This document shows, in pieces, positions 48,876-51,577 of a stretch of DNA of 64,000 bases (position 1 is its first letter; every line of letters begins with the position of its first letter). The notes below the pieces were generated by a model. It ran no database searches and had not been told where the DNA came from. It was given only the letters and a program-made list of their open reading frames with translations. The DNA is from an uncultured Gemmatimonadota bacterium (GTDB lineage: Bacteria; Gemmatimonadota; Gemmatimonadetes; Gemmatimonadales; Gemmatimonadaceae). The stretch spans positions 3,409 to 67,408 of the forward strand of contig CADEDA010000005.1 in NCBI GenBank assembly GCA_902825965.1, in the 5' to 3' direction. A program made the translations under genes and the position numbers.

Positions 48876-50045
48876 ATGACGCGCATCCCGCGCGGCGACG
48901 CGGTCGCCCTCACGCAAGCCTTGGTCGCCATCGACTCGCGGAACCCGTCCCTCGCGACGGGTTCCGCGGGCGAAGGTGCCGTCGCCACCGCGCTCGCCAC
49001 CACGCTGCGCGAGTGGGGATGCGTCGTCGAACGCCGGGACGCGCTCCCGGGACGGCCCAACGTCGTCGCCCGGATCGCCGGCAAGGGCCGCGGCCGCTCG
49101 CTGCTGCTCAACGGACACCTCGACACGGTCGGCGTCGAGGGGATGACACACGCACCCTACGCACCGACCATCCGCGACGGGCGCCTCTACGGGCGCGGCA
49201 GCGCGGACATGAAGGCCGGTGTGGCCGCGATGTGCGCGGCGGCGGTACGCGCGGCCGACGCCGGACTCGCCGGTGAGGTCATCCTCGCCGCGGTCTGCGA
49301 CGAGGAGTTCGAGAGCCACGGCACGCGGGCCCTGCTCGCCGGCGGACTCCGCGCCGACGCGGCGATCGTCACCGAACCCACGCGACTGGCGATCTGTCCG
49401 GCACACCGTGGCTTCGCCTGGGCCGAGGTGACGGTCGAGGGTCGCGCCGCCCACGGCTCGCGGTACGACGTCGGCGTCGACGCGATCACGCACGGTGCAC
49501 ACCTGCTCGCGGAGCTGGATGCCTACCAGCGCACGGTGCTCGAGCGGCGCACGCATCCGCTGCTGGGCCGGGCCTCCCTGCACGCCGGCACCATCCAGGG
49601 CGGACTCGGGCTGTCCACGTATCCCGAACGCTGCCGGTTCTCGCTCGAGCGACGCACGCTCCCGGGTGAGGACGGACAGGACTTCGTCGGCGAGGTGACG
49701 GACGCCATCGCGCGCGTGCGCGCGCGTGTCCCGGCGCTGCGCGCGCAGGTCGCCCCCGGCGTGGTGCAGGCCCCCAACGACGTCCCGCTGGATCACCCGA
49801 TCGTGTCGGCGCTGCAGGCCGCCGCGCGCGCGACTGGCCGCGCCGCGAGTGTGGAGGGCCTCTCGTGCTGGACCGACGCCGCGCTCTTCACCGCCGCCGG
49901 CATCCCCGCCGTGTGTTACGGGCCGGGCGACATCGCGCTCGCCCACGCGGCGGAGGAATACGTGCCGGTGGATGAGATCACGCGGGCGACGGACGTGCTC
50001 ACCCGCGTCATCCTCGGCTGGTCCGGCCGCGCGGAGGCCGCGTGA
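48876..50045 (+). CDS. M20-family metallopeptidase/deacylase (ArgE/DapE/ACY1 type)
   Basis: This 389-aa cytosolic zinc hydrolase has metal ligands at the usual sites: His81 and Asp83 (LLNGHLDTV), Asp111 (GRGSADMKAG), Glu143-Glu144 (CDEEFESHG), and TEPT near 165. The lid dimerisation domain includes HRGFAWAEVTVEGRAAHGSR. The exact substrate (acetylornithine, succinyl-DAP, acyl amino acid, dipeptide) is not decidable; the absence of nearby arg or dap genes makes a general deacylase plausible. It opens an operon of coupled genes. Confidence 0.9.
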   Translation: MTRIPRGDAVALTQALVAIDSRNPSLATGSAGEGAVATALATTLREWGCVVERRDALPGRPNVVARIAGKGRGRSLLLNGHLDTVGVEGMTHAPYAPTIRDGRLYGRGSADMKAGVAAMCAAAVRAADAGLAGEVILAAVCDEEFESHGTRALLAGGLRADAAIVTEPTRLAICPAHRGFAWAEVTVEGRAAHGSRYDVGVDAITHGAHLLAELDAYQRTVLERRTHPLLGRASLHAGTIQGGLGLSTYPERCRFSLERRTLPGEDGQDFVGEVTDAIARVRARVPALRAQVAPGVVQAPNDVPLDHPIVSALQAAARATGRAASVEGLSCWTDAALFTAAGIPAVCYGPGDIALAHAAEEYVPVDEITRATDVLTRVILGWSGRAEAA

Positions 50046-50257
50046 GCCTCACGGTCGCGCAGTACGACGCGCTCGAACGCGCGATCGTCGATCGCGCGCG
50101 CGTCACGTTCTTCCGTCGCGGCACGGAATACCTGGTCATCCCCGAGCGTATCATCTCGGTGCAGGGCGCCGAGGCGCTCGTGGCGCGGCATCCGACCACG
50201 GGGGCTTCGCTCACGGTGCGGCTCGACGAGACCAGCGGCATGAGCGCGGTGCGATGA
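50042..50257 (+). CDS. Small protein of unknown function (71 aa)
   Basis: It starts with GTG overlapping the peptidase stop (GTGA) and ends overlapping the RNase H start (ATGA). The sequence (VAQYDALERAIVDRARVTFF, RGTEYLVIPERIISVQGAEA) suggests a small alpha/beta domain with no known motif. Similar tiny genes are easily missed; the double overlap and fitting codon use support it as real. Confidence 0.7.
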   Translation: MSLTVAQYDALERAIVDRARVTFFRRGTEYLVIPERIISVQGAEALVARHPTTGASLTVRLDETSGMSAVR

Positions 50258-50868
50258 GCGCGCGGTTCCCGCTGGTGGCGGTGTTCGCGGACGAATCCTG
50301 TCTGGGCAACGGCAAGGAGGGCGACAACCCGGGCGGCGCGGGTGTGCTCGTCGAATACCAGCACGCGGACGGCCGCATCACGCGGCGCGACCTCTGGGTC
50401 TCGGAACCGGCGACGACGAACAACCGCATGGCGCTGCGCTCGGTGATCGAGGCCTTCACCGCCCTCTCGGCCAAGCAGGGGCGCTTCAGCGTGCTGTTCA
50501 CCACCGACTCGCGGTACATCGTCGACGGGATGACGAGCTGGGTGTTCGGCTGGGCGCGCAACGGATGGAAGCGGAAGACGGGGCCGATCGAGAACCTCGC
50601 GCTCTGGCACGACGCGTTGCGCGCGACCACCGGCCATGAGTATGCCTGGCACTGGGTGAAGGGCCACGCCGGCCATCCGCAGAACGAGTACGCCAACGAC
50701 CTCGCGGTACGCGCCGCGACGCAGGGCTCCGCGTCCGGCGGCCTGGTCGCCTCGGAGTTCGAGACCTGGCTCGCGGCGCGACGCGCCAAGGCCGGGGCAC
50801 ACGCCGCCGTCGCGGCGTTCCCGGATGGCGAGCGGTTCAAACCATCCCCATCTTTGCCTCGGACATGA
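50254..50868 (+). CDS. RNase HI-like protein with altered active site
   Basis: This 204-aa protein matches E. coli RNase HI over its first 160 residues: Asp13 in FADESCLGN, TNNRMAL, LFTTDSRY with Asp85, and WVKGHAGHPQNE. The four catalytic acids are changed: Glu48 of the E. coli enzyme aligns with Ala60, and Asp134 aligns with Asn148 (next residue Asp149). The Gly after the first Asp is Glu14, and six residues (GKEGDN) are inserted in the following loop. Glu14 may replace the missing Glu. RNA/DNA hybrid cleavage is therefore uncertain. A C-terminal helix-rich tail of 45 residues is added. Confidence 0.88.
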   Translation: MSARFPLVAVFADESCLGNGKEGDNPGGAGVLVEYQHADGRITRRDLWVSEPATTNNRMALRSVIEAFTALSAKQGRFSVLFTTDSRYIVDGMTSWVFGWARNGWKRKTGPIENLALWHDALRATTGHEYAWHWVKGHAGHPQNEYANDLAVRAATQGSASGGLVASEFETWLAARRAKAGAHAAVAAFPDGERFKPSPSLPRT

Positions 50869-50878
50869 GCCCCTGACC

Positions 50879-51577
50879 GTGGACGCCCTCGATCTCCTCT
50901 TCCGCCGGCTCGTCCTCTCCGCACAAGCGGTGGGGGTGCTGGACCGTCCACTCGAGCTGGGCGAGATCCTCGACCGCCTGGCGCCGTACAGTGCGGCGCG
51001 ACGCGACGGCAAGATCGAGACGCACGACGACTACCAGCACCTGGTCATGCGGCTGGTGGCCGGCGAACGCGATCTGGTCTTCGCCGACGACCTCATGCAG
51101 GACGACCTGCGCGCCGAGCTCGCCTCGCCGAACCCGGACCTGGCGGTGCTGCGCACCTACCTCAACGCGAAGGTGCGGCTCTCCACGGGCGCGATCCAGC
51201 AGGTGCTCGCGGGCGACACGGCGATCGACCTCACACCGCCGACACCGATGAAGCCGGGACCGGCGGTGCGTGCGAGCAAACCGGTCAGCGCCGTCACCGC
51301 GGCGGCACGGGAGCCGGGCGCCGAGGCGCCCTCGGGACCGATCGCCGAACCGATGACGATGCCGCGCGACAACAGTGCGCTCTTCGAGGCGCTCGGGGGT
51401 AATGGAACAGGTTCGGGTGGTTGCCCGTACTGCGCCCAGCCCCTGCCGGAGGGGCGCACCGTCAAGTTCTGCCCGTGCTGCGGGCAGAATCTCCTTGTGA
51501 AGCGCTGCCCCGGTTGCAGTGCGGAGATCGAACAGGGATGGAAGTTCTGCGTGACCTGCGGACGCAAGGCGACGTGA
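50879..51577 (+). CDS. Protein with C-terminal double zinc ribbon
   Basis: This 232-aa cytosolic protein starts at GTG 50879, 10 bp after the RNase HI-like gene; an in-frame ATG at 50825 would overlap that gene. The N-terminal 125 residues are helical with no family match. The C terminus holds two zinc ribbons: CPYC with CPCCG, and CPGC with CVTCG (about 178-230), as in small DZANK-type domains. They may bind nucleic acid or proteins. The stop overlaps the next gene (GTGA). Confidence 0.75.
   Translation: MDALDLLFRRLVLSAQAVGVLDRPLELGEILDRLAPYSAARRDGKIETHDDYQHLVMRLVAGERDLVFADDLMQDDLRAELASPNPDLAVLRTYLNAKVRLSTGAIQQVLAGDTAIDLTPPTPMKPGPAVRASKPVSAVTAAAREPGAEAPSGPIAEPMTMPRDNSALFEALGGNGTGSGGCPYCAQPLPEGRTVKFCPCCGQNLLVKRCPGCSAEIEQGWKFCVTCGRKAT

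Follow-up and report, generated by a model that had tools for sequence, protein, structure and literature searches.

A Gemmatimonadota type-1 RNase H with its second catalytic acid, a glutamate, apparently on strand 1

The window, by which we mean the whole 64,000-nucleotide stretch of DNA that was analysed, encodes a 204-residue type-1 RNase H that very probably is a housekeeping RNase HI of the LC9-RNase H1 kind, cutting RNA/DNA hybrids with metals held by way of a glutamate, Glu14, on strand 1. By its sequence, the protein most likely removes RNA from hybrids as the housekeeping RNase HI of its host, because its gene is the sole PF00075 gene that the genome has, beside one normal RNase HII with the motif DEVGRG. 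The re-wiring of the active site is in itself already known, since it was published in 2013 for LC9-RNase H1 (PDB entry 4IBN), a protein 63-65% identical to the one described here. What is added by the present analysis is modest, and consists of the fixation of the arrangement throughout the class, an apparent single origin, and a fourth ligand that drifts. The enzyme is a clear example from nature of a catalytic residue that has changed its place in a fold while the enzyme itself was retained, and the outcome converges with the layout seen in RNase H2; annotation by motif could wrongly label RNases H of this Asp-Glu type as dead.

Fold and active-site residues

The protein scored 100.4 bits (E 1.2e-28) against the PF00075 RNase_H profile, for which the cut-off is 25.8, and this was the only one of the two RNase H families that it matched; the single PF01351 match of the genome lies on another contig, and the protein is thus not an RNase H2. 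It is not a canonical DEDD enzyme either. With NF001236, the equivalog profile for RNase HI, it reached 129.1 bits, below the curated cut-off of 160, and alanine stands at the position of Glu48.

Alignment with E. coli RNase HI paired D10 with Asp13, G11 with Glu14, E48 with Ala60, D70 with Asp85, H124 with His138 and D134 with Asn148, the last of which is adjoined by Asp149. A preliminary description of this DNA had recognized the signatures of the RNase HI fold, the exchange of Glu48 for alanine in TNNRMAL and of D134 for asparagine, and the extra glutamate right after the first aspartate; all of these were borne out, the fold by the PF00075 match and by the structural match to 4IBN. The six-residue insertion that it had also proposed was reduced by the alignment to a net four residues after SCLGN relative to E. 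coli (DESCLGNGKEGDNPGGAG vs DGSCLGNPGPGGYG).

Features of the RNase H gene and its neighbours (positions in the window)
Feature	Position	Strand	Evidence
M20-family ArgE/DapE-type deacylase, at the head of the run	48876..50045	+	TIGR01910 247 bits; neighbouring gene in nearly all relatives of the family that were read
71-aa protein	50042..50257	+	4-base overlap at either end, with the M20 and RNase H genes
Type-1 RNase H (RNase HI), LC9/DEDN kind, 204 aa	50254..50868	+	ORF (ATG start 50254, TGA stop 50866-50868), PF00075, 4IBN match, model
Asp13-Glu14 (codons GAC GAA), first catalytic Asp and putative relocated catalytic Glu, strand beta-1	50290..50295	+	Alignment with E. coli and 4IBN, model
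Ala60 codon, vacated Glu48 position, start of helix A	50431..50433	+	TTNNRMAL, conservation, helix 56-75
Asp85 codon, third catalytic acid (E. coli Asp70)	50506..50508	+	Invariant column
Asn148 codon, fourth position (E. coli Asp134)	50695..50697	+	Alignment, N/D/H counts
C-terminal extension, about residues 160-204, ends FKPSPSLPRT, partly helical	50731..50865	+	Similar sequence in 4IBN; model helix 169-180
Double zinc-ribbon protein, probable GTG start at 50879	50879..51577	+	PF12773 E 9.5e-8; follows RNase H in nearly all relatives of the family

An AlphaFold2 model built from 40 aligned sequences (mean pLDDT 91.2, pTM 0.88) places Asp13-Glu14 in the first strand (residues 7-16) and Ala60 in a helix comprising residues 56-75. 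Its top fold match was 4IBN (65% identity, TM 0.90, Z 29.4, rmsd 2.1 over 200 residues), which was also the best match in the PDB by sequence (E 6.9e-83). Entries for E. coli RNase HI ranked next, with Z at most 19.7, and the model contains the elements of the RNase H fold and the basic protrusion, with the catalytic His138 invariant among relatives.

The title of 4IBN reads 'Crystal structure of LC9-RNase H1, a type 1 RNase H with the type 2 active-site motif'; the corresponding publication is Nguyen et al. 2013 (FEBS Lett 587:1418, doi 10.1016/j.febslet.2013.03.020), which is entered in the reference list of PMC4423430 under a title containing 'atypical DEDN active site motif'. Both proteins carry the motifs ADESCLGNG, TTNNRMAL, TTDSRY and NEYAN, and the residues that define the DEDN type, namely Asp-Glu on strand 1, alanine at the Glu48 position, the third aspartate and asparagine in fourth place, are identical in the two. 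They also have the loop insertion and the C-terminal extension in common, and over approximately 200 residues they differ by ordinary sequence divergence only. LC9-RNase H1 derives from a metagenome, whereas the window gene is found in a genome with a family-wide gene order. For LC9-RNase H1 it is reported that the glutamate has shifted off helix A and onto strand 1, where RNase H2 also has it; mutagenesis is said to have supported the DEDN motif, and the properties of the enzyme are reported to be RNase H1-like.

With E. coli RNase HI and the other canonical DEDD enzymes the window protein has in common the fold, the two core aspartates, the catalytic histidine and the basic protrusion. In the canonical enzymes, on the other hand, the second acid is located on helix A (Glu48), the fourth acid is an aspartate, and a C-terminal extension of this kind is missing. 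The extension is about 45 residues long and is retained throughout the class; it has a conserved tryptophan and an end that is variable and often acidic or proline-rich. What is proposed for the active site does not account for it, and it may bind a partner.

Position 34 of the protein (50353-50355) is a glutamate on strand 2 where E. coli has arginine, and it was invariant in 166 of 166 sequences of the Asp-Glu type. Glu34 may pair with conserved arginine residues of this group, or it may belong to the altered site.

The putative metal site and alternative readings

By analogy with the LC9-RNase H1 homologue and with RNase H2, from which both metal binding by Glu14 and enzyme activity are inferred, two divalent metals would be held by Asp13, Glu14, Asp85 and Asn148. 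Glu14 on strand 1 would take the place of E. coli Glu48 on helix A, holding metal B and reading the 2'-OH of the RNA, in parallel with the glutamate of the DE pair in RNase H2. With the RNase HI fold, the catalytic histidine and the basic protrusion retained, the enzyme would cut RNA in RNA/DNA hybrids. The same two-metal site, with the glutamate supplied by a strand, appears to be the simplest reading. The preliminary description had likewise suggested that the second carboxylate moved from helix to strand to give a re-wired metal site, and this is supported by the invariance of Glu14 and its pairing with Ala60, by the title of the LC9 homologue, and by the Asp-Glu pair of RNase H2.

The preliminary description also considered that the protein might bind hybrids without cutting them. 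Such a homologue, having lost Glu48 and Asp134, would resemble E48A/D134N, a mutant of the active site that has been engineered in E. coli RNase HI (1wsg), and one would expect the E. coli enzyme to be crippled by these two losses by themselves. However, the new glutamate beside the first aspartate is fixed in every member of the Asp-Glu type, the core aspartates and the histidine are invariant, the basic protrusion is kept, the genome holds no other type-1 RNase H, and the title of the solved homologue presents it as an RNase H bearing a type-2 active-site motif, not as a dead protein. We therefore give this idea very little chance; a dead enzyme was rejected on the grounds of conservation and of the solved homologue, and a protein that only binds hybrids is unlikely.

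An equally improbable alternative is that the relocated glutamate confers the behaviour of RNase H2, that is, nicking at single ribonucleotides in DNA. The Asp-Glu pair is indeed that of RNase H2: in the T. maritima enzyme the pair D18-E19 is situated at the end of strand 1, and Glu19 occupies a position similar to that of the second acid of RNase H1, though it comes from another part of the fold (PMC3025331). RNase H2 is nevertheless another family, with the fourth acid placed elsewhere and with a junction-specific reading of the substrate, for which it uses a GRG motif and a tyrosine that stacks on the next sugar (PMC3025331). Neither this motif nor the stacking tyrosine was evident in the window RNase H, which has kept the basic protrusion of RNase HI, and the genome already has its RNase HII. 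The LC9 enzyme, moreover, is reportedly RNase H1-like. Hybrid cleavage by an RNase HI with a strand-borne glutamate stays the preferred reading.

Gene neighbourhood

The RNase H gene is the third in a run of four (M20 peptidase, 71-aa protein, RNase H, zinc-ribbon protein), the first three of which are linked by 4-base overlaps. The 71-aa protein gave no Pfam match even at E 10. The preliminary description had regarded an operon with a zinc-ribbon and a 71-aa protein as unusual, but the order is the standard one of the family, kept in nearly all of the family relatives examined. Throughout the family the 71-aa gene is directly upstream of the RNase H; in parts of the order it is near, sometimes further away, and the zinc-ribbon gene too is near the RNase H in part of the order. 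In other orders, the RNase H had none of these three genes next to it within flanks of 1.5-2.5 kb. The gene order is a marker of lineage and provides no evidence for a special system.

Conservation, distribution and origin

A homologue was present in 95 of 99 relatives. Conservation was assessed with 168 distinct sequences from the class (183 loci), taken from whole genomes and from a genome collection. Asp13, Glu14, Ala60, Asp85, His138 and Glu145 were invariant or nearly so. Glu14 was found in 166 of the 168 sequences, and the co-variation of Glu14 and Ala60 that the preliminary description had asked about was strict, with alanine in 165/165 of the Glu14 members for which the column was readable. 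The two remaining sequences have the canonical Gly/Glu pair, and no intermediate, with Glu14 and the helix glutamate together or with neither, occurred among the 168. With 165 distinct relatives showing these residues too, the pattern is not a product of chance.

The fourth position behaves differently. Among distinct members it is asparagine in 122, aspartate in 33 and histidine in 8, and a FastTree tree computed with this column left out requires 20 changes. Glu14/Ala60 is therefore held fixed, whereas the fourth ligand varies, and 'DEDN' is one of three states. For E. coli RNase HI, structures of the corresponding D134N and D134H mutants have been solved (1kvc and 1kvb, respectively).

In a tree of 84 sequences, whose alignment included the motif columns, though these are few, the 61 Glu14 sequences and the 23 canonical ones were split on one branch (SH-aLRT 99, length 0.92), which is consistent with one origin of the Glu14/Ala60 arrangement as far as the sequences tell. 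The RNases H of the other class of the phylum are short and different, and their TDG/NNxAEY motifs are of the ordinary kind. It is a doubtful, wider proposal that a one-time relocation of a carboxylate in a housekeeping enzyme underlies the whole class, that the fourth ligand was then freed to be Asn, Asp or His, and that the relocated site might alter substrate or metal preference compared with canonical RNase HI.

Of 389 matches in the named genome collection, the 80 best came nearly all from Gemmatimonadota. Three among these 80 are labelled Gammaproteobacteria (L183, L184 and L192); they are near copies of Gemmatimonadota sequences (L176/L186) and group with Gemmatimonadota in the tree, as does a 'BD2-11 clade' bin filed under Pseudomonadota. 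The three Gammaproteobacteria-titled bins are probably mislabelled. By this distribution, the genome that holds the window very probably belongs to Gemmatimonadota as well.

A phage or plasmid origin was considered and rejected: the 55 RNase H relatives that IMG/VR yielded all lacked the Asp-Glu pair, a motif-rich 60-aa query gave no match among plasmids, and among phages it gave one weak match (37% identity).

Two genomes of the same class, G196 and G248, were found to carry a canonical RNase HI instead of the Asp-Glu type (L260, 6639-7304, minus strand, and L261, 4896-5567, plus strand, respectively). The G248 copy has a Lys-rich N-terminal extension that contains cysteine, and G173, of the same genus as G196, keeps the Asp-Glu type. 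Because the two canonical proteins are 74% identical and have neighbouring genes in common, it seems likelier that the lineage enzyme was replaced than that these are contaminants.
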